64,000 nt of DNA from Ktedonobacterales bacterium (GTDB taxonomy: Bacteria; Chloroflexota; Ktedonobacteria; Ktedonobacterales; DATBGS01), in the NCBI GenBank assembly GCA_036557285.1, contig DATBHW010000044.1:62001-126000 (forward strand). Direction: 5' to 3'. Made by a program: the position numbers and the translations under genes. Positions 30,548 through 48,255 of the stretch are shown in pieces; the stretch's first letter is position 1, and the number at the start of each line of letters is the position of its first letter. The notes under the pieces were generated by a model that saw only the letters and a list, made by a program, of their open reading frames with translations, was not told the DNA's origin and made no database searches.

Positions 30548-32023
30548 TCAGGTTCCCTGGAACTTGATGATGGTAATGATGGTACGCGCCAGGATAGTCA
30601 GGTCGAAGATGAGCGATTGGTGCCGAATGTAGTAGAGGTCATATTGCAGCTTGCGCAGCGCATCCTCGGTGCTGTTCCCGTAGCGATAGCGAATCTGCGC
30701 CCACCCCGTCAGGCCAGGTTTGACCACATGCCGGGTTTGATAAAAGGGGATCTCGCTTCCCAAGAGCTGCACAAACTCCGGGCGCTCCGGGCGAGGGCCG
30801 ACCAGGCTCATCTCCCCTGCCAACACATTGATGAGCTGCGGGACTTCGTCTAGCCGGACCTTGCGCATCAGCCGGCCCAGGCGCGTCACCCGTGTATCGT
30901 GGTCGGTTGCCCAGCGAACGCCGGTCAGGTTTTCGGCGCCATCAATCATCGAGCGCAGCTTCACGATCTTGAAGACTTTGTCACCTCGGCCTACCCGTTC
31001 CTGAAGATAGAAGATCGGGCCAGGCGAATCCAGTTTGATCGCCAGCGCGAGCAGCGGAAAGCAGAGGGCGAAGAGCGCCAGGCCGACCAGCGCCAACAGG
31101 AGATCAATGCCTCGTTTGAGCGCCTGAGAGAGATTGAACACCAGCGAGCGTTCTTCATGTGGCAGCACCAGCGCCCAGAGGTGCTGATCGACCAGTTCGA
31201 TAGGGATACGCCCGGTGATCTGCTCATAGAGCATAGGCATGGGTACAATCGCAATGCCCTGTCTATAGCAAGCCATCAAGCCCTGGAAGATGTCATTAGG
31301 TACGTCGTTGACATAGGACACGATTAGCTCAGAGACGCCATACTGCTGCACGAGCTTTACGAGTTCTTTTCCCGTACCTAAGAGCGCGGCCCCTTCCACA
31401 GCAGGGGTGCGGTCATGCGCACTGGTCACACAGCCGACGATCTCGTAATCGTGTTGTACTTCCTGCTTAATAGCCTCCCAAATGGCCTGGGAGGCGCTGC
31501 CGGTACCCACAATCAACACCCGTCGGCGAAAGCTGGACCGGCTGGTCAGAAACAACCGCCCGGCGCGCCACAACGCAATCATGGTCAGAGAGAGGATCGC
31601 ATAATAGAGAATAAAGGCGCGGGGTAACAGGTTGCGTGGGGCCAGGAGAAAGATAATGCCGTAGGCCAGCACCAGTTGCAACGAGATCCAGGCCAGCCGT
31701 GTCACACTGCTGGAGAAACGCGAAGTGACGCGCAGGTTATAGTAATCGTTGGCGTGGGCGAGGGTGAGCCAGAGGAGGGGCAGGACAAAAAACCAGACGA
31801 CGCGCTCCCAGATAAACGCCAGAGTGAAGGGTTCCTGGGCTGTGAGCGCCCACAGCCACAGCGCACACAGTACCGAGAGCAGTGTCACGGCCATATCGCC
31901 CTGTATGAGCAGGATACGGCGTTTCGCTATCGAAAACTGGATTCCCCTGGCAGGTATTGTTGGTCTCCCGCTGTGTTCTTGCGCGCCGGTTTCCAGGGGG
32001 AGATCGTCATGCTTAGGTAACAT
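30548..32023 (-). CDS. Polyprenyl-phosphate glycosyl-1-phosphate transferase (WbaP/CpsE family)
   Basis: The 491-residue protein has an N-terminal membrane region with several helices, a Rossmann-like middle part (RVLIVGTGSASQAIWEAI) and a C-terminal transferase domain with KIVKLRSMIDGAE, LRKVRLDEVPQLINVLAGEMSLVGPRPERPEFV and a final PGLTGWAQIRYRYG. It starts repeat-unit assembly by moving a sugar-1-phosphate (glucose, galactose or amino sugar) to undecaprenyl phosphate. It is the most downstream gene of the minus-strand block 30548-42648, behind a GT4 gene. Confidence 0.93.
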   Translation of the reverse strand: MLPKHDDLPLETGAQEHSGRPTIPARGIQFSIAKRRILLIQGDMAVTLLSVLCALWLWALTAQEPFTLAFIWERVVWFFVLPLLWLTLAHANDYYNLRVTSRFSSSVTRLAWISLQLVLAYGIIFLLAPRNLLPRAFILYYAILSLTMIALWRAGRLFLTSRSSFRRRVLIVGTGSASQAIWEAIKQEVQHDYEIVGCVTSAHDRTPAVEGAALLGTGKELVKLVQQYGVSELIVSYVNDVPNDIFQGLMACYRQGIAIVPMPMLYEQITGRIPIELVDQHLWALVLPHEERSLVFNLSQALKRGIDLLLALVGLALFALCFPLLALAIKLDSPGPIFYLQERVGRGDKVFKIVKLRSMIDGAENLTGVRWATDHDTRVTRLGRLMRKVRLDEVPQLINVLAGEMSLVGPRPERPEFVQLLGSEIPFYQTRHVVKPGLTGWAQIRYRYGNSTEDALRKLQYDLYYIRHQSLIFDLTILARTIITIIKFQGT

Positions 32024-32064: not shown

Positions 32065-33354
32065 TCACTGGGCATCTGAGGATCCTCCAAACACGGGAAG
32101 ATGAGCCTGAGCCTCTTCCTGCCGCCTCTCCAGTAAAGCCAGAAGGCGCTCCTCTAATGTCACGACCAATTGATCCCGATCAAAGTGTGCTTTGACAAAC
32201 TCGCGTCCCCGCTGGCCCAGGCTCCGGGCCAGCTCTGGCTGATCGCGCAGTTGAAGAATGGTGTGCGCCAGCGCGCTGGCGCTCCCCGGTTCCACATAGA
32301 GCGCCGCCCCAGCTTGCTCAGCAATAAGCTGCCGCGCCTCACCATCCACAGCCAGGGCGAGCGGGCGCGCGCAAGCCATAGCTTCGTATGCCTTGACAGG
32401 CACAGTTCCCTCGAACAGAGGCGCCTTGAGTACGGATGCCAGGCAGGCATCCGCTGCGGCAATAAACACAGGCAATCGGTCATGAGGTTGCGCGCCCCAA
32501 AAGACCACATTTGTTAGGTGTCGCCTCTCTGCCTCGGCCACCAGGGCTGCCTTGGCAGTGCCTTCCCCAAGAATGATCAGCCGAATATCTGGATAAGAAC
32601 GCAAGTGTTCAGCGGCCTCAAGGAGTACCATCAGACCATGCGCCAGGGCAACGGCTCCCGCATGCAGCAGAATAAAACTGTTGGCATCCCAGCCTACCTC
32701 AGCGCGCGCCTGAGCCTGGGGAAGCGGGCGAAATTTTTCGGTATCCACGCCATTGGGTACCAAAAATACTTTCTCAGGAGGCTGGACACGCTTGAGCAGC
32801 AGTTGGTGTGTCCCTTGTGTCACCGACCAGATGGCGGCAGCCCGGCGATAGCTGGAGAGTTCAAGCCACTCTGCCAGCCGAATCAGGAAACGATTCCGCA
32901 ACACGCCCAACTGAACTGCTGCCTCCGGCCAGATGTCCGCGACATTCAACACATAGGGACGCCGTTTGAAGCGCGCCAGGAGACGCCCACCAATGGCATC
33001 AAAGAGCGGTGGAGATCCCACCACAATCACATCAGGTTGCCCAACCGCTCTGGCGCCCAGGAAAGGCGCCAGGCAGCCAAAGGAGAGCTGCGAGAGGATG
33101 CGGTGGAAAAATCCCTTATGAGGAGTGATATAACTCCATACCCGCACGACGGAGACTCCATCGAGTATCTCACGACGACGGGCGCGGCCACGATATTCAG
33201 GGGGTACTTTCCCCAGGGGATAATTTGGCAGCGTCGTCAGCACTGTCACTTTATGCCCCCGCTTGACCAGCCGCACCGCAGTTTCGCTAATCCGCGTTTG
33301 AGCCGCCCCAACCTCTGGTGGGTAGTAGGGTGTAAAAAACAAGATGTTTGCCAT
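32065..33354 (-). CDS. GT4 family glycosyltransferase (WbuB-like)
   Basis: The 429-residue protein starts MANILFFTPYYPPEVGAAQTRISETAVRLVKRGHKVTVLTTLPNYP, like WbuB/WcaI-type enzymes that add N-acetylated amino sugars, and ends with a GT-B C-terminal domain with PNGVDTEKFRPL, LGEGTAKAALV, FEGTVPVKAYEAMACARPL. It transfers a sugar from a nucleotide donor to the lipid-linked acceptor in the cytosol. It lies 41 nt upstream of the WbaP-type gene on the same strand. Substrate is not decided by sequence. Confidence 0.88.
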   Translation of the reverse strand: MANILFFTPYYPPEVGAAQTRISETAVRLVKRGHKVTVLTTLPNYPLGKVPPEYRGRARRREILDGVSVVRVWSYITPHKGFFHRILSQLSFGCLAPFLGARAVGQPDVIVVGSPPLFDAIGGRLLARFKRRPYVLNVADIWPEAAVQLGVLRNRFLIRLAEWLELSSYRRAAAIWSVTQGTHQLLLKRVQPPEKVFLVPNGVDTEKFRPLPQAQARAEVGWDANSFILLHAGAVALAHGLMVLLEAAEHLRSYPDIRLIILGEGTAKAALVAEAERRHLTNVVFWGAQPHDRLPVFIAAADACLASVLKAPLFEGTVPVKAYEAMACARPLALAVDGEARQLIAEQAGAALYVEPGSASALAHTILQLRDQPELARSLGQRGREFVKAHFDRDQLVVTLEERLLALLERRQEEAQAHLPVFGGSSDAQ

Positions 33355-34875: not shown

Positions 34876-36123
34876 TCACTCAATGCCACCGTAGTTGGGA
34901 AAACTGGCGATGTGTTGGTACAGCGTAATCAGACGCCCACTCTCAACCTCCCAGTGTAGATCTGTTTCACTCGCCCGCAGCGCATTGGTGCGCATCTCCT
35001 CCAGAGCTTGAGAATCCGCCAGCAAATCATTGATCGCCTTTCCAATTGCTTCTGGTTCCAACGAGGACACCATGCGCCCGACTTCATAGCGTTGAACAAT
35101 ATCCACAATGGCTTCCAGCGGCGACGTGAGGACAGGCAATCCCACCATCAAATACTCAAAGAGCTTATTCGGCAGGCACAATTGAATACTGACCGAATAG
35201 CTCGGTAAAAAAAGGGTAAGACCGATGTCAGCCGAGGCGGCCCACTCCAGCAGTTCTTCATAAGGCACAGCAGGTACGATTTTTACCTGATCGCCCACAC
35301 CCGTTTCAATGATCAATCTTTCTAATTGAGCTTGTATCGGCCCCTTGCCCATCAAGACGATGACATTGCCGGGAGCCAGGAAACGCGCTGCATAGATCAG
35401 CCTATCAAGCGAGCGATTATTCTGGAGACCACCGTGATAGAGGGCGATACGGCTCTCCGCGTCCAGCTTGAGCAGGCGACGCAGCCGATCACTCGTAACC
35501 GGGGGCTGGTATACAGGGAGATTGCGAACTACTGTAGCGGTTGGTCCGCCATAACGTCGTTGTAGTTCAGCCACAATAGGAGGTGAGACGGTAAGCACAC
35601 CGTCACACCGGGGCATCATGCCTCGCAACAGAGCGGCAGTCAGCCAACGGAGAACAGGGCGCCTGGTAATTGAAGGGTCTGTCACTGGTAGTTCGTGGGC
35701 ATCGTAGACCAGATGTTTGCGCCGGAGAACGGCAGCCAGATAGCAAGCGGGCAAGGCGGTAATATCGTGTGCGTGATATACGTCTGCCGGTGTACGCAGA
35801 ACCGTGAATAGACTCCCCAGCATCTGGCTGGCCTTTGGCAGGAGCCAGAGCTTGAACGGCCCCAGGTGAGGCCAGGTAGGCGTGCGGGCATGTTTTATCC
35901 GAACACCCTGAGCCGTTTCCTCGCGTGGCCGCGCGCGGTCATTTTCAGTATCCACAACCGTGACGGCCAGGCCCGCCTCGACCAGCGAGATAGCCTCGCG
36001 CATCACACGAACATCAGTATCCCCCTTTCCTAAGAGGTGCATACAGACCCTCTTACCAGCAAGCCGACTTTCAGGTTGCGTGTGTGCTGTCGGCGTAGTA
36101 ACAGATGCAGGTTGCCCAATCAT
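34876..36123 (-). CDS. GT4 family glycosyltransferase, tandem copy A
   Basis: The 415-residue GT-B glycosyltransferase has VCMHLLGKGDTDVRVMREAISL near the N-terminus, DVYHAHDITALPACYLAA, LVYDAHELPVTD, and C-terminal PYEELLEWAASADIGLTLF and LPNKLFEYLMVGLPVLTS, with the nucleotide-sugar glutamates. The start at ATG 36123 follows AGAGGAT; an open frame reaches 36279 but overlaps the next gene's end. It is a tandem paralogue of the gene at 36218-37456, alike over nearly the full length, suggesting recent duplication with new acceptor or donor choice. Confidence 0.87.
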   Translation of the reverse strand: MIGQPASVTTPTAHTQPESRLAGKRVCMHLLGKGDTDVRVMREAISLVEAGLAVTVVDTENDRARPREETAQGVRIKHARTPTWPHLGPFKLWLLPKASQMLGSLFTVLRTPADVYHAHDITALPACYLAAVLRRKHLVYDAHELPVTDPSITRRPVLRWLTAALLRGMMPRCDGVLTVSPPIVAELQRRYGGPTATVVRNLPVYQPPVTSDRLRRLLKLDAESRIALYHGGLQNNRSLDRLIYAARFLAPGNVIVLMGKGPIQAQLERLIIETGVGDQVKIVPAVPYEELLEWAASADIGLTLFLPSYSVSIQLCLPNKLFEYLMVGLPVLTSPLEAIVDIVQRYEVGRMVSSLEPEAIGKAINDLLADSQALEEMRTNALRASETDLHWEVESGRLITLYQHIASFPNYGGIE

Positions 36124-36217
36124 CACAATATCCTCTTTGTTATATGAAAGTTCATAGTATGGACATGAGGAAGGATTCGATATACATTGATCATGCGCAG
36201 GCCCAGAGGCTGGCCCA

Positions 36218-37456
36218 TCAGCCCTTATCGAAACTACCAAGCACCTGCTGATAGAGTTGCAGCAGGCGCTGGCTTTCAACGTCCCAGCGCAGATCCTTTT
36301 GAGCCGCCGCCAGCGCGTTCTTCCTCATGCGCGCCAGCGCCGCGCTATCGGCCAAGAGCCTGTTGATCGCCTCGCCAATCTCCGCTGGCTCCAGCGAAGG
36401 AGCCACGACTCCTACGTCATACGTCTTCAGCACATCGGCGACGGCATCCAGCGATGAGGCCAGGACAGGGAGGCCAGCCATCAAATACTCAAAAAGCTTA
36501 TTGGGCAGGCACATTCGAATACTGAACGAATAGCCTGGGTCAAACAGGGTGAGGCCTATATCGGCTGAGGCCGTCCATTCCAGCAGTTCCTCATAGGGAA
36601 CCGGCGGAAGAACCTTCACTCGGTCAGCAACCCCCTCCTGAGCAATCAGCGCCTCAAGATCAATATCCATAACATTGCGTCCCATCATCACGATCACAAC
36701 GCCAGGGTCAAGGAACTTGGCGGCATAGACTAGTCGATCAAGCCCTCGATTTGGCTGAAGGTTGCCCTGATAGAGCGCGATCTGCGTTTGAGGGCTGAGG
36801 CCCAGTTGGCGGCGGAGCCGGTCACTGGAAATAGGAGATTGGTAGTTTGGCATATTACGAATCAGTACCGGCGTTGGTCCACCATAGCGGCGCTGCAACT
36901 CCTGCGCGATGGGGGGGGAGACTGTAATAACCGCTATGCAGCGCGGAATCATCCACCTGAATGCGCGGGTTGCCAGGGCATGAAGCCGCCGCCACCGAGT
37001 CACCCCCTGTTCCACTAATGGCAACTCATGCGCGTCAAAGATGAGTGGCTTCCGGCGCAGCCAGGCGGCAATACAGCAGGCGGGGAGCGCCTTCGTGTCC
37101 TGGGCGTGATATACATCGGCAGAGGTACGCAGAAGGGCAAACGTCCCCCGGCAGAACAGCTGGAATGCCTTGACGAGAAACCAGAGCTTGAAGCGGCGGG
37201 TAGGAACGAACCAACTGGGCATTCTCACATGTTTCAGCCGGATACCCTGGAAGTCTTCTTCACGAGGGTAGGTGCGCTGGGCCTCCACATCTACAATCGA
37301 AACAGCCATCCCTGTTTTCACCAAAGCATCGGCCTCGCGCAGCACGCGGGCATCGATACGCACTCTCCCCAGAACGTGCATGCAGACACGCGCCGGGGCC
37401 GCGCTTTGCACCTGATCTGTTGGTGATTGAGGAGTAGAAGAAAGCGTTTGCGCCAT
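36218..37456 (-). CDS. GT4 family glycosyltransferase, tandem copy B
   Basis: The 412-residue GT-B protein matches copy A block for block: VCMHVLGRVRIDARVLREA, DVYHAQDTKALPACCIAA, LIFDAHELPLVE, PVPYEELLEWTASADIGLTLF and LPNKLFEYLMAGLPVLAS. The start at 37456 has GGAGAG 9 nt upstream and lies directly after the flippase stop (1 nt between). It probably adds a sugar to the repeat unit at the cytosolic membrane face. Confidence 0.87.
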   Translation of the reverse strand: MAQTLSSTPQSPTDQVQSAAPARVCMHVLGRVRIDARVLREADALVKTGMAVSIVDVEAQRTYPREEDFQGIRLKHVRMPSWFVPTRRFKLWFLVKAFQLFCRGTFALLRTSADVYHAQDTKALPACCIAAWLRRKPLIFDAHELPLVEQGVTRWRRLHALATRAFRWMIPRCIAVITVSPPIAQELQRRYGGPTPVLIRNMPNYQSPISSDRLRRQLGLSPQTQIALYQGNLQPNRGLDRLVYAAKFLDPGVVIVMMGRNVMDIDLEALIAQEGVADRVKVLPPVPYEELLEWTASADIGLTLFDPGYSFSIRMCLPNKLFEYLMAGLPVLASSLDAVADVLKTYDVGVVAPSLEPAEIGEAINRLLADSAALARMRKNALAAAQKDLRWDVESQRLLQLYQQVLGSFDKG

Positions 37457-37457
37457 G

Positions 37458-39341
37458 CTACGAGACTCTCCAATCCGAAGCAATACGAGTAATCAAACGA
37501 GCGCCATGAGCGCGCAGAAGACCTATCCCTCCTGCCAGGAAGAGAAGAAAGACTCCATAGAGAATCAGGCACACAAAGGTCAGAGGCCAACGCCAGAAGA
37601 CGCCCCATTCCAGCGAAAACACGTCAGCGCCTATATAGAGCGCGACGCCCATCAGAAGGGCGAGCAAAAAGCGCTTCATTTCATACGGAACAGGATAGAT
37701 ACGTTGATTCGCCAGGTACCCCACCAGGGCCAGCACGATATAAGCAATCAAGGTGGAGGCTGCCGCGCCCGCCGCGCCATAGCGCGGAATCAGTAGCAGA
37801 TTTAGAGCAAAATTCACAAAGGCCGCCCCCGCTGTGAAGGCGGCGTGCATCCACGTTTTGCGCTGGACACTGACTCCGGTCATAAAGACGCTGTACAGCC
37901 CATAAAAGACGAGGGACTCGGCTACAACGGGAATAATGGGCGCCGCCGAGTGGTAGTTTTTCAGAAACAACCAGTCCAACAGGAGGGTGCCACCGATTGA
38001 GACGGCAAAAGCTACAAACAGCAGCACCGTGCTGAACCAGCGAAAGATCATCCGAAAGACCTGTGGGGCATCTTTGCGCTTGGCTACAGCATACATTGTG
38101 GCAGGCCAGGCCAGGGAAAAGGGGGCAATGACCAGCGTAGCCAATACTGACCCCAGGCTATAGGCGACCGTATAGCTGGCCGTTTGCGCCAGCGAACCGA
38201 ACAGGCTCAGCAGATAACGGTCGGAGACTTGCAGCACCCAGTAAGAGACAGCACTAAAAACCAGTGGCGTCCCAAATGTGAGCAGGCTCCAGGCAATATC
38301 TTTGCGCACACGCAATCTCGAACGCCAGAGGATAACCGGCACAGTACAAAGCGCCACACTGGCATAGCCGCTCCCCGTGGCAAGCAGCGAACCCTCCACT
38401 CCCCAACCTAGCAGCCCTACCAGCAGCAGATTAGCGCCCAGCACGATCAGCACATTGCTTATCGAGAGCAAGGAATAGAACAGAGGGCGGTTTTCCGCGC
38501 GCAGCCAGGCAAAGCCAGGGACGGTGAGATTCTGCACCACCACAATCCAGGCAGTTGTGGTAATGAGGCCGCCGAGCGACGAGCGGCCATCAAGCAGCAC
38601 CCCGGCCAGGGCAGGCGCGAGAAGCGAAGCGACAATTGCCACTGGTATGGAGACGAGAGGCAAGAGCACAATGATCGTCGCAAGCACCGAGCGCCGGTCA
38701 CGCGGCTCAGTGTACTCATAACTATACACGCGAAAGAATGCCGAGCCAAGACCAAGCTGGGTAATGCCTGTCGTTAAACTGAGCACTGTCGTCAGGACGG
38801 CAAGCATACCATAAGAATCTTGCGAGAGACGATGTGTCAGGAACGGCGCCAGCACCAACGATACCAGGGGAGAAGCTAACGAGGCGAGCGCATAAATCCC
38901 AGAACTCTTCACCATCGTGCGCGCTGTCTCGACATAGCTGGCGGCAGGCGCGCTGCTGACCCTAGGTTCAGTGAGCGCCTCGATACTAGACGATTTAGTC
39001 TCTGGGGATACCAGGGTCGCCAGCCTACCATCGGATGAATAATCAGCCTCCACAGGCTCAGGGAGCAGCGACTTTTGCGTCGGCATCCGGGGGAGGGGTT
39101 GAGTCGGCCAGTTATTTAGCGTGTAGAGTGGCATTGGGGCAGTTGGAAATTTATCAATATTGAGGTCAGGAAGGGAACTCGAAAGATACTGGGCAAATGC
39201 TTCCTCCTCCTCAGGCGAGGATTGGGGATTTGCCTTCTCCTGCTCCTCAGGCAAGAGCGGGCGCTGGGCTTCTCCCTGGACAACCTCATTCGTATTCTGG
39301 CGCATCAGACCGATACGCTGATAGAGCTTACTTAAAGGCAT
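37458..39341 (-). CDS. wzx: Wzx-like polysaccharide flippase with N-terminal extension
   Basis: The 627-residue protein has about 145 polar, Pro-, Glu- and Ser-rich residues before a membrane domain with about 14 helices of the MATE/polysaccharide transporter type, starting SSGIYALASLASPLVSLVLAPFLTHRLSQDSYG. It would flip the lipid-linked repeat unit across the membrane in a Wzx/Wzy pathway. The extension holds repeats such as PTAPMPLYTL and PTQPLPRMPTQ, similar in style to the MurJ tail. It lies next to the GT4 genes and a glucuronyl epimerase-like gene, all on the minus strand. Confidence 0.85.
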   Translation of the reverse strand: MPLSKLYQRIGLMRQNTNEVVQGEAQRPLLPEEQEKANPQSSPEEEEAFAQYLSSSLPDLNIDKFPTAPMPLYTLNNWPTQPLPRMPTQKSLLPEPVEADYSSDGRLATLVSPETKSSSIEALTEPRVSSAPAASYVETARTMVKSSGIYALASLASPLVSLVLAPFLTHRLSQDSYGMLAVLTTVLSLTTGITQLGLGSAFFRVYSYEYTEPRDRRSVLATIIVLLPLVSIPVAIVASLLAPALAGVLLDGRSSLGGLITTTAWIVVVQNLTVPGFAWLRAENRPLFYSLLSISNVLIVLGANLLLVGLLGWGVEGSLLATGSGYASVALCTVPVILWRSRLRVRKDIAWSLLTFGTPLVFSAVSYWVLQVSDRYLLSLFGSLAQTASYTVAYSLGSVLATLVIAPFSLAWPATMYAVAKRKDAPQVFRMIFRWFSTVLLFVAFAVSIGGTLLLDWLFLKNYHSAAPIIPVVAESLVFYGLYSVFMTGVSVQRKTWMHAAFTAGAAFVNFALNLLLIPRYGAAGAAASTLIAYIVLALVGYLANQRIYPVPYEMKRFLLALLMGVALYIGADVFSLEWGVFWRWPLTFVCLILYGVFLLFLAGGIGLLRAHGARLITRIASDWRVS

Positions 39342-39375: not shown

Positions 39376-40425
39376 TTACCGACTATCACCTGCTGTCACA
39401 GGCGCTGGCCTGGCTACCTGTGGCGCGGACCCTTTGAGGAAGGTTCGCTGTAACCTGCGACGGTAGCGCCACAGGCGGCTGGCGCCGAAGTGACGGAAAC
39501 GGCTCCAGGAACTCCGCTGATACTGCTCCCAACGCGCCGCCAGGGCCGCGCAATGCGCGCAGCCGGAAAGCTGGGCCAGCACCCGAAGCTGGAGAATATG
39601 CAGAGCATGATAGGAGAGGGCGGCCTGATGCTTATTGAAGAGATCATAGCGCGACCAGTAGCCAGTATCATAGTCATCAATCCAGCTATGGAGTGTGGCA
39701 AGACTGCGCTGGATCAGTTCGTTGATCTGGCTATCGTTCGTGAGCGCCACATAATCATACAGGCCAAAGAGCGCGTAGAGATAGCCATTGAGAATGTGCG
39801 CCGCCGGGTATACGGCCACCTCCTCAAAGAAGACGCCATCCTCCCCCAGAAACACGCTCACCCCACCATCGAGAATATCATGCTCAAAGGGGCGCACACC
39901 ACGTTGGGCAACCCTGAGAAACTGCTCATTGCCGGTGAGCCGGTAGGCGCGTACCAGGACGGAAATGACATTGCCCTGTGTCATGGCGGAAAGCCAGGGT
40001 CCAGGCGCGTGATAGCTGGAGGACGGGAAGGGAATCGGCCAGACGCTCACCTCGCTATCCCGTTGCACTGCATGCTCCACCAGCCAGTTTGCCTGGGTGA
40101 GAAACGCCTGCCGGTGCTGCTCGCCCGCAGTCTCTACATAGGCATTCCAATGCGCCAGGGCATAGTGAGCAATGGTCGTTGGCTGATAGCATGCCGGATG
40201 CTCGCCCTTCTGCGCATTATATGGAACGCCCTTTTCATCGAGTGTTCCGTGCGGCAGCGCCAGCGCAGCAAACATATCTATCGGATAGAGAGGTAGCTCA
40301 GCCGCTTGCTGTGTCGGCTTCGCCAGGCGATAATGAGGCAAGTTGACCTCATTTCGCCATGCCACCCAGTCAGCGATCAGGGGGAGTGAGCGCCACAACG
40401 AGCGGCGCCGGGATGGATTGCTCAT
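39376..40425 (-). CDS. D-glucuronyl C5-epimerase-like protein, free-standing
   Basis: The 349-residue protein matches the C-terminal domain of D-glucuronyl C5-epimerases: LSAMTQGNVISVLVRAYRLTG (146-165), FFEEVAVYPAAHILNGYLYALFGLYDY (199-225) and YDTGYWSRYDL with SYHALHILQL (252-280). Y260 of YDL and Y272 of the YH motif correspond by eye to the conserved tyrosines reported as catalytic in vertebrate epimerases. The family converts D-glucuronate in a polymer to L-iduronate; related bacterial enzymes may act on other uronates. No signal peptide is visible, so it may work in the cytosol or on lipid-linked chains. It follows the fused gene by 3 nt. Confidence 0.85.
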   Translation of the reverse strand: MSNPSRRRSLWRSLPLIADWVAWRNEVNLPHYRLAKPTQQAAELPLYPIDMFAALALPHGTLDEKGVPYNAQKGEHPACYQPTTIAHYALAHWNAYVETAGEQHRQAFLTQANWLVEHAVQRDSEVSVWPIPFPSSSYHAPGPWLSAMTQGNVISVLVRAYRLTGNEQFLRVAQRGVRPFEHDILDGGVSVFLGEDGVFFEEVAVYPAAHILNGYLYALFGLYDYVALTNDSQINELIQRSLATLHSWIDDYDTGYWSRYDLFNKHQAALSYHALHILQLRVLAQLSGCAHCAALAARWEQYQRSSWSRFRHFGASRLWRYRRRLQRTFLKGSAPQVARPAPVTAGDSR

Positions 40426-40428
40426 GCT

Positions 40429-42648
40429 TTATCTAACCTCCTCAACGATCAGTTCATCTTTGCGCTGTCTCCAATGGACATCATTCACCGCCAAAGGCCA
40501 TCCAGTGGCCCGCAGCAGGCAGCGTCTGAGTGCCTCAGCGCGATGGTGCGCTTCGATATACGCTCTCGCTCGTGCCCCCATCTCCCGCGTTGTCGGCAGA
40601 TCACGCAGAGCTTCTGTTAGAGCCGCGCTCACCGCCTCGGCATCGCCAACAGGAATCGCCATGCCACGCCCGTCCGTAAGGAGCGCCGCCTTGGAAGGGG
40701 GAACCATCGAAGCAATCACCATCAGCCCCGCAGCCATTGCCTCAAGCACAGCCACTGAATTGATGTCGCGGATGGCCGTAAAAAGGAAAAGATCGCTGAT
40801 GCTCAAGAGCAGCGCCACATCATCTCTGGTCGTCTCGCCCAACAGCAGGCACGTGGATTCCAGTTGATAACGGCGAATATCCTCCTCAATCCGCGCGCGC
40901 AATGGTCCATCTCCGGCAATAACTACGCGCACCCTGGAACCAAGAGTGGTAGGAAGCCTGCTGAGCGCACTGCTGATCCCTTGCAACGCAACATCAATAC
41001 CCTTTTCAGGCGCCAGCCGATTCACCATAGCGATCACGATGCCATCAGCAGGAAGCTGCAACTGCTTCCGTCGCCTGGCTCTCTCCAGCCCATCACAGGG
41101 AGCATAACGCTCCGTATCAATCAGAAAAGGAAAGCGGCTGATCCGGTCTGCGGAGACGCCGAACCCCTGACGGTAAGCTGTCTCAACGGCATCCCCAGCA
41201 GGTAAAAAGAAATCTGTAGCACTGGTGGCGACACGAGTCAAGAGGCGGAGTGACGGCCAGTAGCAGGCAAACCGCAAACGCGAAAGCATCCTGGACCGCC
41301 AGGGCGCCGCCTCAGACCTTTTCAGCCGTTCAGCGCGAAAGATGGGGCTAGAGGGCAAGGTGATATTGCCATGATCCATGCACACGACTCGCACGCCCGC
41401 CAGCCTGGCGGCCAGAGCCGCATAGGCGCCGGTAAAGACCCCATCTTGGGCCAGAATCACATGATAGCGTTGGCCGTGACGAAGCAAGGAAAGCAGCCGC
41501 CGCCAGCCAGCAAAGACATAGAACCAGACGTTAGGAAATTGCCAGTAGGCGGTATAGGCATTGCCAAACGAGCGGATCGTCATGCCTTCGTGGTCCTGCC
41601 CGATACGCCAGGCCAGGTACTCAATCTCCCACACACCAGCCATCGCCTGCGCCACCCCGGCCAGGACACTGCGCATGCCGCCAGCTACTGGGAAAGCCGT
41701 GATGGGTACACAGACCTTTCGCGTACTTTGCTGCCCCGCGCCTTCAGCGCCAGGGAAGAAGCGGCGCTGAAGCCAGAACCAGAATGTTTGTCGCACGCGG
41801 CTCGCTTTGCGGGCGAAGAAATAGTGGAAGCGAGAGTGCAGAGCATGTTGGTATCCTGCCCAGCGCGCCGCCAGCGCTGCCCAGGCATCATCGCCCGAAG
41901 CGCGCGCCAGCGCCTTGAGTAATGCAATGTGCAGCGCGTGCGTGGCCGGGTCAGCCAGCCGTCTTGAGGCTAAATCCGCGCGCGACCAGTAGCCAGTATC
42001 AAACGCGGGCGTCAGGGCGGAAAGCGCAGCAAGACAGCGATGAACAAGCTCAGCAACTCGCGTGTCATCAGCCACTGCCAGATAATCATATAAGCCTAGA
42101 AGCGCAATCACGCACACACTGAGATGATGCGCAGCCGGATAAGCGGCTACCTCCTCAAAAAAGATGCCTTCACCTCCAACCGGCGCGCTCACCCCACCAT
42201 CAAAAATATCCAGATCAAAGGCGCGAACGGCGCGCTGAGCCACGCGCCAAAAAGCTTCATCACCCGTCAGCCGGTAAGCACGCACCAGCACAGAGAGCGC
42301 CAGACCCTGTGTGGAGGCGGAAAGTAGTGGCACAGGTTCAGGAAGCGTGGACAACCGCATCAAAACAGGCCAGCCAGACACAGCCTCGGCAAAAGGTGTT
42401 GCACGCTCCAGAAACCACGCGGCCTGGGCCAGAAAAGCCATCCGATGCTGCTCTTCACCTGTGACAAGATAGTCGTTCCAGCAAATAAGCGCCTCCTGGG
42501 CAGCGATGGTCGGCTGATGACCATTCGGCAATTGATACTCTGACGCATCAGGGGCCGTTTCCTGCTCCTTGAACATCCCACGCGACAACGCCAACAGAGG
42601 CGAGAGGTCAAGAGGGTAGGGTGAGAGTCCTTCAGGTTGCCCGCTCAT
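40429..42648 (-). CDS. Glucuronyl C5-epimerase-like domain fused to GT4 glycosyltransferase
   Basis: The 739-residue protein has two parts. Residues 1 to about 275 are an epimerase-like domain: STQGLALSVLVRAYRLTGD, FFEEVAAYPAAHHLSVCVIALLGLYDY, FDTGYWSRADL, PATHALHIALL. The positions of the two catalytic tyrosines of the neighbour hold Ala224 and Thr236, and the YDTG tyrosine is Phe216, so activity is unlikely. Residues about 312-739 are a GT4 domain with MDHGN, VNRLAPEKGIDVALQG, IAGDGPLRARIEED and LFLFTAIRDINSVAVLEAMAAGLMVIAS. The module may bind the uronate chain for the transferase. Start at 42648 has AGGTG upstream; the gene leads the minus-strand block. Confidence 0.87.
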   Translation of the reverse strand: MSGQPEGLSPYPLDLSPLLALSRGMFKEQETAPDASEYQLPNGHQPTIAAQEALICWNDYLVTGEEQHRMAFLAQAAWFLERATPFAEAVSGWPVLMRLSTLPEPVPLLSASTQGLALSVLVRAYRLTGDEAFWRVAQRAVRAFDLDIFDGGVSAPVGGEGIFFEEVAAYPAAHHLSVCVIALLGLYDYLAVADDTRVAELVHRCLAALSALTPAFDTGYWSRADLASRRLADPATHALHIALLKALARASGDDAWAALAARWAGYQHALHSRFHYFFARKASRVRQTFWFWLQRRFFPGAEGAGQQSTRKVCVPITAFPVAGGMRSVLAGVAQAMAGVWEIEYLAWRIGQDHEGMTIRSFGNAYTAYWQFPNVWFYVFAGWRRLLSLLRHGQRYHVILAQDGVFTGAYAALAARLAGVRVVCMDHGNITLPSSPIFRAERLKRSEAAPWRSRMLSRLRFACYWPSLRLLTRVATSATDFFLPAGDAVETAYRQGFGVSADRISRFPFLIDTERYAPCDGLERARRRKQLQLPADGIVIAMVNRLAPEKGIDVALQGISSALSRLPTTLGSRVRVVIAGDGPLRARIEEDIRRYQLESTCLLLGETTRDDVALLLSISDLFLFTAIRDINSVAVLEAMAAGLMVIASMVPPSKAALLTDGRGMAIPVGDAEAVSAALTEALRDLPTTREMGARARAYIEAHHRAEALRRCLLRATGWPLAVNDVHWRQRKDELIVEEVR

Positions 42649-43176
42649 ACTGGAACACCTCTGTGTAGCATCGTAATCTTACCTGCTTCTCGATCTGCGC
42701 CTGGGCGTTCTTTTCTCGCTTCTCTCCAGGGAGGCTCCTGATGAGAATCTGGCGTTATCTGTCCTGGTGAATGTGCTGAAGGCAGAATCATCAAAGATTA
42801 GGATCATCAAAGGTATTTTTATAAGAACACCAAAAGTAGGAACATCAGGCGCATACTCAACACCTGAACAATACACGCACTATACGCCCTTACCGATCTC
42901 AATACAAGAGGCGCTTCTGGTCGTGCCGCCCGCATCCAGCCCTTATTAGATAACGAAAGAACGGGTTGGAGGAATACGCCTGAGTCAGTGTTAGCCAATT
43001 TTTCCTAGCATAAAACCGGCCATCGCGCGCCTTTCACCTCTACAGCAGAGATGAACGATCACCCCCAACCATCCTTCCCTTGACAGCGATGCGAGAATCA
43101 ATGTGCCAGGGAATAGGTGAGCTTTCACTCACTCACCCATTCTTTCCCTTCGCCTACTCACAACAGTGGAGAAAGT
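42649..43176. other. Divergent intergenic region between the two halves of the polysaccharide locus
   Basis: This 528-nt gap separates the minus-strand block (from 42648) and the plus-strand sugar pathway (from 43177). It should contain both promoters. A TTGACA lies at 43080-43085 without a clear -10. Two direct copies of ATCATCAAAG (42787-42796 and 42803-42812, period 16 nt) could be a regulator site. The composition is lower in GC than the flanks and no coding frame is supported. Confidence 0.45.
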
Positions 43177-43776
43177 GTGAACACGATCTTTATTCATCCA
43201 ACCGCCGATGTCGCCGCCGATGCGCACGTTGGCGAGGGAACGCGCATCTGGAACCAGGCACAAATCCGAGAGGGCGCGCAGATTGGCGCTGAATGTAATA
43301 TTGGCAAGAACGCCTATATAGACTTCGGTGTTCAGATCGGCAACCGCGTCAAGATTCAGAACAACGTCTCTGTGTATCATGGAGTGACGGTAGAAGATGG
43401 GGTTTTTATCGGGCCACACGTCTGCTTCTGCAACGATATGCTCCCACGAGCTATTACCCCATCAGGCGCGCTGAAGGGCCAGGATGATTGGGAAGTGGGG
43501 CGAGTGCTGGTACGCACTGGCGCGTCTATCGGGGCTGGCTCCATTATCCTACCCAATGTCACCATCGGTTCTTTCGCGCTCATTGGCGCTGGCTCTGTCG
43601 TGACCCGTTCGGTACCCGATCAGGCGCTGATGTTTGGCAATCCAGCGCGCCTGCAAGGGTATGTCTGCCGCTGCGCGCGCAAGCTGGAAAACCTCACGCA
43701 AACCCCTTCAGGGTTGACAGGCATCTGTCCGTCCTGCCAGATCAGCTACACGCTGGCAGCAGGAGAACATCGCTAG
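43177..43776 (+). CDS. wbpD: N-acetyltransferase, WbpD-like (left-handed beta-helix)
   Basis: The 199-residue protein begins at GTG 43177 with GGAGAAAGT upstream. It consists of hexapeptide repeats (VGEGTRIWNQAQIREGAQIG, CNIGKNAYIDFGVQIGNRVKIQNNVSVYHGVTVEDGVFIG) and a C-terminal part with GNPARLQGYVCRC and CPSC cysteine pairs. It matches WbpD/WlbB-type enzymes that N-acetylate the 3-amino group of UDP-2-acetamido-3-amino-glucuronate. It heads the five-gene pathway with 12 nt to the aminotransferase. Confidence 0.88.
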   Translation: MNTIFIHPTADVAADAHVGEGTRIWNQAQIREGAQIGAECNIGKNAYIDFGVQIGNRVKIQNNVSVYHGVTVEDGVFIGPHVCFCNDMLPRAITPSGALKGQDDWEVGRVLVRTGASIGAGSIILPNVTIGSFALIGAGSVVTRSVPDQALMFGNPARLQGYVCRCARKLENLTQTPSGLTGICPSCQISYTLAAGEHR

Positions 43777-43788
43777 ATAGGAGAAGAA

Positions 43789-44919
43789 ATGATTCCAATC
43801 GCTCGCCCGCTCCTGGGCGCTGAAGAACTGGCTGCCGTCTCCAGGGTCTTTACCAGCGGGCAGCTCGCCCAGGGACAGCAAGTAGCAGAGTTCGAGCAGC
43901 GTTTCGCTGAACTCTGCCAGGTCAAAGAAGCCATTGCCGTCTCATCAGGGACAGCAGCTCTGCACCTGGCCTTGCTGGCGCATGGCATTGGCCCCGGGGA
44001 TGAAGTAATAACCAGCCCCTTCAGTTTTGCGGCCACAGCCAACACCATTCTGCTCGTCGGCGCAACCCCCGTGTTTGCCGATATTGAGCCAGACACCTAT
44101 AATATTGACCCGGCCCTCGTCGAAGCAGCCATCACCCCACGTACCAAAGCGATCATGCCAGTACACCTCTACGGGAACCCCAGCGATATGGACCGATTAG
44201 GGGAACTGGCCGCGCGGCATCATCTAATCTTGATTGAGGACGCCTGCCAGGCGCACGCGGCAGCGATTCGCGGAAAACCCGTTGGTAGTTTTGGCACTGG
44301 CTGTTTCTCCTTCTACGCCACCAAAAACATCACCACCGGGGAAGGCGGCATGATCACCACCAACGACCCGGAAATTGCCGAGCAAGTCCGACTCTGGCGC
44401 AGCCACGGGCAGCAGCATCGCTATCACCACATTGCCATTGGCTATAACCAGCGTATGACCGATATACAGGCCGCCATTGGCCTGGCGCAGATGGAGAAAT
44501 TGGAGCGATGGACGGAGCAGCGCATTGCCAACGCCGCCACGCTGACAGCGCAATTGCGCGAATGGGTCAAGACGCCAGTAACTCGCCCCGGCTACCGCCA
44601 TGTCTATCATCAGTACACCATTCAGGTGGAAGGCGACCGGGACGCCTGGATACAGGCGCTGGCCGAGCGCGGCATCGGCACAGCGGTTCATTATCCCTGC
44701 CCAATTCACCAGCAGCCTTTCTACCAGGAGCAGGGGTTCCACGTCTCTCTGCCGATTGCAGAAACCGCAGCAAAGCAGATACTCTCTCTGCCAATTCACC
44801 CCGCTGTGAGCGAGGAGAATCTGGCGACTATCGCACAAGAGGTGATCCGTTATGTCAGTGAAGGTGGCCGTGATCGGCGCAGGGTCAATGGGCCTGAACC
44901 ATCTGCGCGTCCTGCGTGA
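43789..44919 (+). CDS. wbpE: DegT/DnrJ/EryC1 aminotransferase, WbpE-like
   Basis: The 376-residue PLP enzyme has GTAALHLALLAHGIGPGDEVITSPFSF, FADIEPDTYNIDPA, LIEDACQAHAAAIRGKPVG and the internal aldimine Lys179 in YATKNITTGEGGM. WbpE adds the 3-amino group to UDP-2-acetamido-2-deoxy-3-keto-glucuronate using glutamate. The last 20 residues (GGRDRRRVNGPEPSARPA) overlap the start of the next gene by 68 nt and look like read-on from the frame rather than a domain. Confidence 0.9.
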   Translation: MIPIARPLLGAEELAAVSRVFTSGQLAQGQQVAEFEQRFAELCQVKEAIAVSSGTAALHLALLAHGIGPGDEVITSPFSFAATANTILLVGATPVFADIEPDTYNIDPALVEAAITPRTKAIMPVHLYGNPSDMDRLGELAARHHLILIEDACQAHAAAIRGKPVGSFGTGCFSFYATKNITTGEGGMITTNDPEIAEQVRLWRSHGQQHRYHHIAIGYNQRMTDIQAAIGLAQMEKLERWTEQRIANAATLTAQLREWVKTPVTRPGYRHVYHQYTIQVEGDRDAWIQALAERGIGTAVHYPCPIHQQPFYQEQGFHVSLPIAETAAKQILSLPIHPAVSEENLATIAQEVIRYVSEGGRDRRRVNGPEPSARPA

Positions 44920-45871
44920 TTTTCCCGAAGACGTAGTGGAATTGGTTGGCGTGGCCGAAACCCACGAGCCATCTCTGGCGCGGGCCATCAGTCGCTTCCA
45001 CATTGCCGGTTTTACCGACTATCATCAGATGCTCAACCAGGTTCGCCCCGATCTGGTTTCGGTAGTCGTGCCAACCAATGCCCATTTTGAGGTGGCCGCT
45101 GCGGTGCTGAAGGCGGGCTGCCACGTCCTCATCGAAAAACCCATCACCGCTACCAGTGAGGAGGCTATCGCCCTGCTCAAGCTGGCAGCCGAGCGTGACC
45201 GCAAGATCGCCGTCGGCCACGTCGAACGGTTCAATCCCGCAGTCATGGAACTGAAACGCTACATCGCAGCAGGCAACCTGGGGCAGATATTCACGCTGCA
45301 CGCGCGCCGCGTCGGCCCATTTCCCCCGCGTATTCGGGATGTGGGCGTCATTCTCGATCTGGCAACGCACGATCTGGATGTGATGCGCTATCTCACCAAT
45401 GCCGAAGTAGAATACGTCTATGCCGAATCCCAGCAGCGCGTGCATCAAACGCACGAAGACCTGCTGCTGGGCCTGATCCGCTTCAGCAATCGCGCCATCG
45501 GCGTGCTGGATGTCAACTGGCTGACACCCACCAAGGTGCGCGAACTGAGCGTCACCTGCGAACGTGGCATGTATCTGGTCAACTATCTGAGTCAAGACCT
45601 TTATTTCTATGAGAACGACTATACAACAACGACCTGGGACGCGCTGCGCTCCATTACAGGAGTGAGTGAGGGAACCATGACGCGCCTGAAAGTCCAGAAG
45701 GCAGAACCACTGCGCCGGGAGTATGAAGACATCTTCGCAGCATTGCGTGACGACACCGAGCCAACCGTGAGCGGCAAGGATGGCCTGGCTGTCCTGCATC
45801 TGGCCCATCAGTTCATCAAGGCGACACAAAGTAGAGAGGTTATCGTATGCAGCACCCCCATCCATTCGTGA
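44852..45871 (+). CDS. wbpB: Gfo/Idh/MocA oxidoreductase, WbpB-like
   Basis: The 339-residue protein has an N-terminal Rossmann fold (VAVIGAGSMGLNHLRVL), the EKP motif (95-97) and GHVERFNPAVMELK, as in WbpB. WbpB oxidises the 3-position of UDP-GlcNAcA, coupled to WbpE. Because the Rossmann glycines begin at residue 9, the start at 44852 is firm despite overlapping wbpE by 68 nt. It overlaps the next gene by 25 nt, so expression is tightly coupled. Confidence 0.9.
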   Translation: MSVKVAVIGAGSMGLNHLRVLRDFPEDVVELVGVAETHEPSLARAISRFHIAGFTDYHQMLNQVRPDLVSVVVPTNAHFEVAAAVLKAGCHVLIEKPITATSEEAIALLKLAAERDRKIAVGHVERFNPAVMELKRYIAAGNLGQIFTLHARRVGPFPPRIRDVGVILDLATHDLDVMRYLTNAEVEYVYAESQQRVHQTHEDLLLGLIRFSNRAIGVLDVNWLTPTKVRELSVTCERGMYLVNYLSQDLYFYENDYTTTTWDALRSITGVSEGTMTRLKVQKAEPLRREYEDIFAALRDDTEPTVSGKDGLAVLHLAHQFIKATQSREVIVCSTPIHS

Positions 45872-47190
45872 CCGCGCCCGCTCAGCAGAGCGGAACAGTC
45901 GCAGTCGTTGGCCTTGGCAAGATTGGTTTGCCGCTTGCCATCCAATATATCCAGCATGGCCGCCAGGTCATTGGCTGCGACATCAATCCCCAGGTCGTTG
46001 AGGCCATCAATGCGGGGCGCTGTCATGTCCATGAAGAACCGGGGTTGGAAGACGCAGTTGCCAGCGCCGTTGCCCAGGGACGGCTCAGCGCGACAACGGA
46101 CACTGCCTCGGCAGCGCGCCAGGCAGCGGTCGTCGTCATCATTGTGCCGGTGATCGTGAACCAGGGGCACGCGGTAGACTTCCGCAGCATTGACATTGCC
46201 ACACAAGCAGTCGGATCAGGGCTGACATCAGGAACCCTCGTCATCTATGAGACCACCCTGCCCACCGGAACGACCGCTGGAAGGCTGCGCACGATTCTGG
46301 AAGAACAATCAGGGCTGAAAGCTGGCAGCGATTTCCTGCTGGCCTACAGCCCGGAGCGCGTCTCATCCGGCCACATTTCCCGTGATCTCGCTACCTATCC
46401 CAAGGTCGTTGGAGGCGTGAACGAGGCGAGCAGAGACGCCGCCAGCGCCTTCTATCGCTCGGTGCTTGATGCTGAAGTCATCTGTATGGCAAGCACTGAC
46501 GAGGCCGAATTCGTCAAACTCATCGAGACGACCTACCGCGACGTGAACATCGCGCTCGCCAATGAATACGCCCGCTATGCAGACGCGCATGGCCTGGATG
46601 CTATGGCGGCCATTAGCGCCGCCAACACCCAGCCGTACTCCCATATTCATGCCCCAGGCGTCGGAGTGGGCGGGCATTGCATTCCGGTCTACCCGTATTT
46701 CCTCCTGAGCGGGGCTACAGAAGGGCTGGCGCTCCCCCGCCAGGCACGCCTCATCAATGACGGGATGGCCGACTATGCTGTCGAACGTATCGAAACCGAG
46801 ATTGGTTCGCTGGCGGGGCAAACCGTTTTGATCCTGGGGGTCGCCTATCGTGGCAACGTCCGCGAAGTAGCCTTTACCAGCGCAAAATTGTTGCAGCAGG
46901 CGCTGGTCGAACACGATGCCAGGGTTCTTGTTGAAGACCCACTCTTTAGCGAACAAGAGCTAGAAGCATTGGGCTACAGGCCGCTCAGGCCAGAGCAGCG
47001 TGGGGAGATACACGCCATCATCGTGCAGGCCGAACATCAGGTCTACCACTCGCTGGATTTCCGCCAGTTTCCCAATTGCCAGCTTGTGCTTGATGGGCGG
47101 CGGGCATTGAAGCCAGAAGCCATCACAGCAGCGGGCATGCGTTATCTCTCCATCGGAGATGGCGCCAGGCCGCTCATCACGGTACGATAG
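45847..47190 (+). CDS. wbpA: UDP-N-acetyl-hexosamine 6-dehydrogenase, WbpA-like
   Basis: The 447-residue nucleotide-sugar dehydrogenase has an NAD-binding GLGKIGLPLA (22-31), YETTLPTGTT (134-143), SPERVSSG, the substrate Lys224 region DEAEFVKLIETTYRDVNIALANE and catalytic Cys278 in GVGVGGHCIP. WbpA oxidises UDP-GlcNAc to UDP-GlcNAcA, the entry step of the diacetamido-uronate pathway. A 15-residue N-terminal tail precedes the fold. It lies 9 nt before the epimerase gene. Confidence 0.9.
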   Translation: MQHPHPFVTAPAQQSGTVAVVGLGKIGLPLAIQYIQHGRQVIGCDINPQVVEAINAGRCHVHEEPGLEDAVASAVAQGRLSATTDTASAARQAAVVVIIVPVIVNQGHAVDFRSIDIATQAVGSGLTSGTLVIYETTLPTGTTAGRLRTILEEQSGLKAGSDFLLAYSPERVSSGHISRDLATYPKVVGGVNEASRDAASAFYRSVLDAEVICMASTDEAEFVKLIETTYRDVNIALANEYARYADAHGLDAMAAISAANTQPYSHIHAPGVGVGGHCIPVYPYFLLSGATEGLALPRQARLINDGMADYAVERIETEIGSLAGQTVLILGVAYRGNVREVAFTSAKLLQQALVEHDARVLVEDPLFSEQELEALGYRPLRPEQRGEIHAIIVQAEHQVYHSLDFRQFPNCQLVLDGRRALKPEAITAAGMRYLSIGDGARPLITVR

Positions 47191-47199
47191 GGGATAGGG

Positions 47200-48255
47200 A
47201 TGCGCTTTGTTTCTATCGTTGGAGCACGACCCCAATTTATCAAACTGGCTCCGGTGAGCCGCGCTTTGCGACTCCGACACGATGAACTGATTATTCACAC
47301 CGGCCAGCACTACGACGCGGGCCTTTCCTCCCAGTTCTTTGAGGAACTCACCATTCCCACGCCCGATTACCACCTGGGCATTGGTTCGGCGTCTCACGGC
47401 GCGCAGACCGGGCGCATGCTGGAAGGTATTGAGGAAGTGCTCCTGAAAGAGCGGCCTGACGGAGTGATCGTCTTTGGCGATACCAACTCCACCCTGGCAG
47501 GCGCGCTGGCCGCAGCCAAGCTCCATATTCCAGTGGCTCATGTGGAAGCGGGCCTGCGCAGCTTTAACCGCGAAATGCCAGAGGAGATCAATCGTGTCCT
47601 GACGGATCACGCCTCAACCTGGCTGTTTTGCCCGACTGAAACAGCACGCCAGCACCTCTTGCATGAGGGCATAGCTGAAGGGGTAGCAGTGGTGGGGGAT
47701 GTGATGTACGATGTGCTGCGCCAGGTCCAGCCAAAGCTGGTCGGGCGCGCTCACTCGATTCTCTCCGCGCTTGGCATTGAGCCGCAGAGCTATCTGCTGT
47801 TGACCATCCATCGCCCGGCAAACACCGATGATCCTGCCCGGTTAGGGCAAATCGCCCAGGCCATCAGCGGCCTGGGCAGGCCGGTTATCTTCCCAGTACA
47901 CCCGCGCACTCGGAGATTTATGAAAGAGTACCATCTGACCTGGAGCGACCAGGTCCGTCTGATCGAGCCGGTAGGCCACCTGGATATGCTCGCCTTGGTG
48001 CAGGCCGCCTACCATGTGGCTACTGATTCTGGCGGCCTGCAAAAAGAGGCGTTTCTTCTTGGCGCTCCCTGCGTAACTCTGCGCGACGAAACAGAATGGC
48101 CGGAAACGCTGGAAGGTGGTTGGAATCGGCTGGTTGGGAGCCATCGTGAAGCCATCATCGAGGCCATTAATCGCCCACAGCCTGAGCCACTCCACCGACA
48201 GCCCTTCGGGGAAGGCGACGCGGCGCTGCGCATCGCAGGATTACTGCATAACTGA
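47200..48255 (+). CDS. wbpI: UDP-N-acetylglucosamine 2-epimerase family (WbpI-like)
   Basis: The 351-residue protein is a non-hydrolysing 2-epimerase: GARPQFIKLAPVSRAL, HTGQHYDAGLSSQFF, VFGDTNSTLAGALAAAKL, HVEAGLRSFNREMPEEINRVLTDH, TIHRPANTDDP, and DSGGLQKEAFLLGAPCVTLRDETEWPET. WecB-type enzymes act on UDP-GlcNAc; its place after WbpA-like, WbpB-like, WbpE-like and WbpD-like genes makes the WbpI role (2-epimerisation of the diacetamido-glucuronate) more likely. WecB remains the alternative. Its stop overlaps the convergent ligase stop by 15 nt. Confidence 0.88.
   Translation: MRFVSIVGARPQFIKLAPVSRALRLRHDELIIHTGQHYDAGLSSQFFEELTIPTPDYHLGIGSASHGAQTGRMLEGIEEVLLKERPDGVIVFGDTNSTLAGALAAAKLHIPVAHVEAGLRSFNREMPEEINRVLTDHASTWLFCPTETARQHLLHEGIAEGVAVVGDVMYDVLRQVQPKLVGRAHSILSALGIEPQSYLLLTIHRPANTDDPARLGQIAQAISGLGRPVIFPVHPRTRRFMKEYHLTWSDQVRLIEPVGHLDMLALVQAAYHVATDSGGLQKEAFLLGAPCVTLRDETEWPETLEGGWNRLVGSHREAIIEAINRPQPEPLHRQPFGEGDAALRIAGLLHN

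Follow-up and report, generated by a model that had tools for sequence, protein, structure and literature searches.

In the genome of a soil-type bacterium of the order Ktedonobacterales, we identified a gene in which a domain of the glucuronyl C5-epimerase (GLCE) family, lacking the two catalytic tyrosines, is fused to a GT4 glycosyltransferase. The gene is a single open reading frame of 739 aa, read on the minus strand from 42648 to 40429 (40429..42648) of the window, that is, the whole 64,000-nucleotide stretch of DNA that was analysed; it encodes the epimerase-like domain, a linker and the glycosyltransferase. The domain order, the residue losses, the conservation and the linkage to an amino-uronate pathway are evident in the sequences compared. 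We tentatively propose that the N-terminal half, even without the tyrosines, may still hold a uronate-bearing acceptor for the transferase.

Domain architecture of the fusion protein

Pfam profiles separately matched the two halves, to C5-epim_C (PF06662, 4.9e-27; residues 107-264, 41857..42330, minus strand) and Glycos_transf_1 (PF00534, 3.7e-27; residues 524-695), in agreement with the preliminary description of the protein as a fusion of these two families, both of which are known. The PF06662 score of 95.1 bits, against a curated cut-off of 23.3, places the protein within the family, and the region homologous to C5-epimerase comprises residues about 44-268. When the N-terminal half was compared with the PDB using phmmer, human GLCE was recovered (6i01/6hzz, 9.2e-13), and zebrafish glucuronyl C5-epimerase (4PW2) was also matched by sequence alone. 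The resemblance to GLCE (Hsepi) lies in the homologous alpha-helical catalytic domain. Unlike GLCE, the fusion carries a GT4 domain, is probably cytoplasmic and, in an AlphaFold model (14-sequence input; mean pLDDT 80.7, pTM 0.79), has no strands corresponding to the N-terminal beta-hairpin (dimerisation) and beta-sandwich of GLCE-type enzymes; about 45 residues stand before its helical domain.

The two halves are connected by a single amphipathic basic helix (residues 270-297, 41758..41841, minus strand), delimited from the AF2 secondary structure, a moment calculation and the alignment. This linker is Arg-rich, with seven Lys/Arg and no Asp/Glu. The glycosyltransferase half (residues 308-718, 40495..41727, minus strand; PF00534/PF13439) is predicted to fold as GT-B, with PimB' (3oka, TMt 0.80), BshA and WaaG as Foldseek matches. 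As in these enzymes, the donor-binding Arg544 and Lys549, the GDGP motif (579-582), the acceptor-side His426 and the second Glu of the EX7E motif (Glu636) are present. The differences from them are the N-terminal epimerase-like domain and Asp628, which takes the place of the first Glu of EX7E. This Glu is absent from all 14 aligned fusions, so that even the transferase activity is a prediction.

Catalytic residues and constraint on the epimerase-like domain

The catalytic set of human GLCE consists of E499, Y500, N510, Y560 and Y578 (PMC13308652), with Tyr578 serving as the general base and Glu499 as the acid/base on the opposite side (PMC12834895). We assigned the equivalent positions by sequence alignment. 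The residues that the preliminary description had singled out, Ala224 (codon 41977..41979, minus strand) and Thr236 (41941..41943, minus strand), indeed align with Tyr560 and Tyr578, respectively, and the downstream neighbour keeps both tyrosines (Tyr260 and Tyr272), as had been claimed. Glu499 is retained as Glu166 (42151..42153, minus strand), located in a loop modelled with a pLDDT below 50, while Asn510 is replaced by Ser177 (42118..42120, minus strand) and Y500 by Val167; in the neighbour, the five positions are occupied by Glu, Val, Asn, Tyr260 and Tyr272. Compared with what defines EC 5.1.3.12, the fusion thus has the glutamate and lacks the tyrosine pair and the asparagine. The phenylalanine at the tyrosine of the YDTG motif (Phe216), listed earlier with these replacements, was identified correctly, but it is not diagnostic, since Phe also occurs there in members that keep the tyrosines.

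Both tyrosines are missing from 14 of the 16 fusions that we found and from none of 28 non-fused single-domain relatives, sampled from Chloroflexota and three other phyla (Fisher 1e-9, a value that treats relatives as independent). A protein of another architecture, outside these 28 (L147), has Val at the first tyrosine position and nothing aligned at the second. The view of the domain as an inactive epimerase therefore fits this fusion and most of the family, but not two members: G018, which keeps the whole catalytic set, and G035, which keeps the tyrosines. Among 29 columns conserved in the tyrosine-keeping proteins, those lost in the fusions correspond to Y560, Y578, S558, N510, H579, W441 and H582, and the positions of S443, Q447, R456, E498 and E499 are retained at 90-100%. 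At the level of aligned residues, the loss is specific to the catalytic wall.

To this pattern we add the evolutionary rates. In six Thermogemmatispora species, dN/dS was 0.11-0.35 for the tyrosine-less domain and 0.05-0.11 for the glycosyltransferase half (dS is above 1, and saturated, in some comparisons), and the N-terminal domain evolves 2-3 times faster than its partner. That one side of the pocket has specifically been lost while the domain is still under purifying selection agrees with a binding function having been kept, although a domain kept only as a structural relic would evolve in the same way, and the disappearance of W441 and part of the pocket counts against binding. Such a relic would bind no sugar and would persist for the folding, dimerisation or membrane seating of the glycosyltransferase. 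We consider it somewhat unlikely. It agrees with a constraint that is relaxed but real, with tyrosine replacements that differ in every lineage and with the low scores of the poorest C5-epim_C copies in the family (49-63 bits); however, it does not explain why the loss should focus on the catalytic wall and spare the Glu499, Gln447, Arg456 and Ser443 positions, nor why another fusion, G035, retains the tyrosine pair while its glycosyltransferase decays, the opposite of what is expected if the N-terminal domain merely served the transferase.

An improbable alternative is that the active site has been rebuilt around Glu166 and His237/His240 (in Thermogemmatispora, around the equivalents Arg224-Glu236) to act on another uronate. 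The Glu166 position is conserved in every fusion copy except one, which has Asp; His237 and His240 are still present in the source copy; within Thermogemmatispora, the tyrosine positions show one and the same Tyr-Arg...Glu pattern; and a nearby pathway makes an unusual uronate. Against this, there is no family-wide pattern of replacement, and the residues now found at the two tyrosine positions are not conserved.

Gene neighbourhood and nature of the uronate

The fusion gene is followed on the same strand by the gene for the tyrosine-keeping neighbour, a stand-alone C5-epimerase-like protein of 349 aa (39376..40425, minus strand). A C5-epim_C match (6.7e-43) covers most of this protein, which also matches human GLCE more strongly than the fusion does (phmmer 8.8e-25); Foldseek aligns 216 columns of its model with human GLCE at 2.8 A. 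The start of its gene lies 3 bases past the stop codon of the fusion, whose last codons contain the Shine-Dalgarno sequence GAGGAGG, and its C-terminus is a helix similar, by alignment, to the linker helix. The close spacing and the basic helix common to both proteins could be taken to mean that the fusion is a scaffold recruiting the active stand-alone epimerase into a two-chain epimerase-transferase. We regard this as quite improbable because the stand-alone copy is found only in the source genome (G000) and one other (G001) of the 15 that carry fusions, and in G001 the two genes are about 7 kb apart. Moreover, 11 of the 15 fusion genomes, several of them incomplete, have no tyrosine-bearing epimerase, which means that assistance to an active enzyme cannot generally account for the retention of the domain.

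Further along the minus strand, we found genes for a Wzx-type polysaccharide flippase (37458..39341), which comes after the fusion in most related genomes, two GT4 glycosyltransferases, GT4a (36218..37483), a conserved neighbour, and GT4b (34876..36279), recognised by a profile match, and another GT4 (32065..33354) and a priming phosphoglycosyl transferase (Bac_transf; 30548..32023), both conserved in the cluster. The order fusion-Wzx-GT4 is maintained in most relatives, with the priming transferase, another GT4 and WbpA/B/E-like genes near. With start codons as predicted, the ends of the Wzx, GT4a and GT4b reading frames overlap (36218-36279 and 37458-37483), consistent with one operon. A scan for promoters and terminators in the divergent region found nothing.

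On the other side of this region, and divergent from the fusion, the plus strand carries five genes whose products match the complete enzyme set of the UDP-ManNAc3NAcA pathway (43117-48255): an N-acetyltransferase resembling WbpD/WlbB (43117..43776; 3mqg, 1.7e-37), a WbpE-like aminotransferase (43789..44919; WbpE 3nyu, 5.9e-79, with 7b0d as the closest chain), a WbpB-like UDP-GlcNAc(A) 3-dehydrogenase (44852..45871; NF040723, 2.4e-94, below the cut-off of that model), a WbpA-like UDP-HexNAc 6-dehydrogenase (45847..47190; TIGR03026; 4r16, 5.9e-66) and a WbpI-like UDP-2,3-diacetamido-GlcA 2-epimerase (47200..48255; 8sxv, 2.4e-115). In Pseudomonas aeruginosa and Thermus thermophilus, WbpA, WbpB, WbpE, WbpD and WbpI lead to UDP-ManNAc3NAcA (PMC10622841). 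Judged by their best hits, the five genes, which lie side by side, correspond to that pathway; in contrast to it, here they diverge from an epimerase-GT4 fusion, and the WbpI-like gene is missing from many fusion genomes.

The association extends beyond the source genome. A WbpB-like gene is present in 14 of the 15 fusion genomes and in 5 of the 32 others (p = 4e-7 by genome, 0.003 by genus), and within one genus (g2) it occurs in three species with the fusion and is absent from two without it. Since the WbpA/B/E/D/I-like set adjoins the fusion, the uronate is probably a 2,3-diacetamido-2,3-dideoxy-hexuronic acid rather than glucuronic acid. A WbpI-like gene occurs in only five fusion genomes, and the uronate is therefore likely to be GlcNAc3NAcA in some lineages and ManNAc3NAcA in others. 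The source genome also encodes a UDP-glucose dehydrogenase, so UDP-GlcA is available too and GlcA keeps some likelihood as the uronate. A UDP-glucose 6-dehydrogenase of this genome (contig C37, L140:1218-4076) contains an apparent intein at the catalytic-cysteine motif (GGSC/FVGEESV ... ISHN/CFPKD).

Distribution, origin and proposed role of the fusion

A survey of related genomes, suggested in the preliminary description, uncovered 16 epimerase-GT4 fusions in 15 of 47 Ktedonobacterales genomes, among them Dictyobacter arantiisoli, D. vulcani, D. kobayashii, Thermogemmatispora carboxidivorans, T. tikiterensis and T. aurantia, as well as MAGs of the order. Thirteen of the other copies are full-length, with the same uninterrupted domain order and 38-46% identity. 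The notion that an assembly or frame error joined two genes is refuted by these fourteen uninterrupted fusions from separate assemblies, even though frame breaks in D. kobayashii indicate that such errors occur. In that genome (G040), the fusion gene and a nearby WbpB-like gene are both frame-broken within about 10 kb (L022 and L101), probably through assembly indels.

No epimerase-GT fusion was detected among the PF06662 matches of about 350 sampled Chloroflexota genomes outside the order, in 1186 sampled genomes of three further phyla, or in a pattern scan of genome contigs, which reaches near relatives only; long PF06662 reading frames outside the order carry no GT domain. The C-terminal part of one protein (L066) was considered as a polysaccharide deacetylase, which Pfam does not support. 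Other arrangements were observed: in another Chloroflexota genome, C5-epim_C lies behind three cell-wall-binding CWB2 repeats (L071:811-3402), a different and probably extracellular architecture, and two proteins (L148 and L161) have tandem C5-epim_C domains in which the segment equivalent to Tyr578 seems to have moved to the C-terminus. In line with the preliminary description, which knew of no account of such a fusion, none turned up in the openly available literature or in the genomes searched.

The glycosyltransferase halves of the fusions form one clade against 38 other GT4s (support 100/100), indicating that the fusion arose once. The two fusions that keep the tyrosines differ from each other. 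G018 has a complete epimerase catalytic set and complete GT motifs and, from its residues, looks bifunctional. G035 (L015) has Ser at the Asn510 position and has lost the equivalents of His426, Lys549 and GDGP (DHG to DSG, EKG to EMD, GDGP to EERL); its Pfam GT score is 33.7 bits, compared with 61.8-97.8 in five other fusions scanned. Because one is complete and the other has a degenerate transferase, a bifunctional epimerase-transferase probably stood at the origin of the family, and one or the other activity decayed later. In the N-domain tree, G018, G035 and two stand-alone proteins fall outside the 14 tyrosine-less fusions, with weak support (82/63), and AU tests of one versus several tyrosine losses gave p values of 0.19 (GT columns), 0.29 (full) and 0.53 (N-domain), the trees differing among these data sets. 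A fuller scenario is unlikely when taken as a whole: the substrate of the ancestor would have been a 2,3-diacetamido-uronate within a lipid-linked repeat, which the enzyme would have epimerised at C5 to the L-sugar and extended by the next residue; the halves would then have decayed reciprocally, the pseudo-epimerase surviving as acceptor recognition and G018 remaining an amino-uronate C5-epimerase.

Judging from the two families, a GT4 draws its nucleotide sugars from the cytoplasm and a Wzx translocates the lipid-linked repeat once it is complete. Catalysis or binding by the epimerase half would thus be expected at the cytoplasmic face, with a short lipid-linked glycan as its target. In the acceptor-holding role that we favour, the fusion would be a cytoplasmic, presumably membrane-associated GT4 that builds the lipid-linked repeat of a Wzx-exported polysaccharide, with an N-terminal pseudo-epimerase derived from an active uronyl C5-epimerase. 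The probable bifunctional ancestor would have taken the uronate into the epimerase pocket, flipped C5 and added the next sugar. The source lineage has lost the residues on the base side (human Y560, Y578 and N510) and retains the Glu499 side together with the remainder of the fold, and the domain would most likely grip the uronate-bearing acceptor and present it to the transferase without epimerising it; in the source genome, the stand-alone neighbour from the same operon could supply the epimerisation.

Little is known of bacterial glucuronyl C5-epimerases, and a paper of 2026 still names RED65 of Bermanella marisrubri as the only one assayed (PMC13308652). RED65, compared here by description only, is also bacterial and is said to use a GLCE-like mechanism; in contrast to the present family, no fusion to a glycosyltransferase is reported for it in the text consulted. 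Two further systems described there offer partial parallels (PMC13308652). In Halobacterium salinarum, too, a uronate is epimerised at C5 within a short lipid-linked glycan that has yet to be exported, but the protein concerned, Agl32, is described as devoid of all the GLCE catalytic residues, of another structural type and not fused to a glycosyltransferase. In dermatan sulfate epimerase 2 (DSepi2), a uronyl C5-epimerase is likewise joined to a further domain that serves in glycan building, but this partner is an O-sulfotransferase and the epimerase family is unrelated in sequence.

In the fusion family, a GLCE-type domain is physically tied to a cytoplasmic-side glycosyltransferase, and the substrate suggested is an amino-uronate. 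With both halves intact in one member, the epimerase lost in others and the transferase lost in another, the family provides a natural series in which to ask whether a dead polymer-modifying enzyme could become the substrate-recognition module of a transferase.
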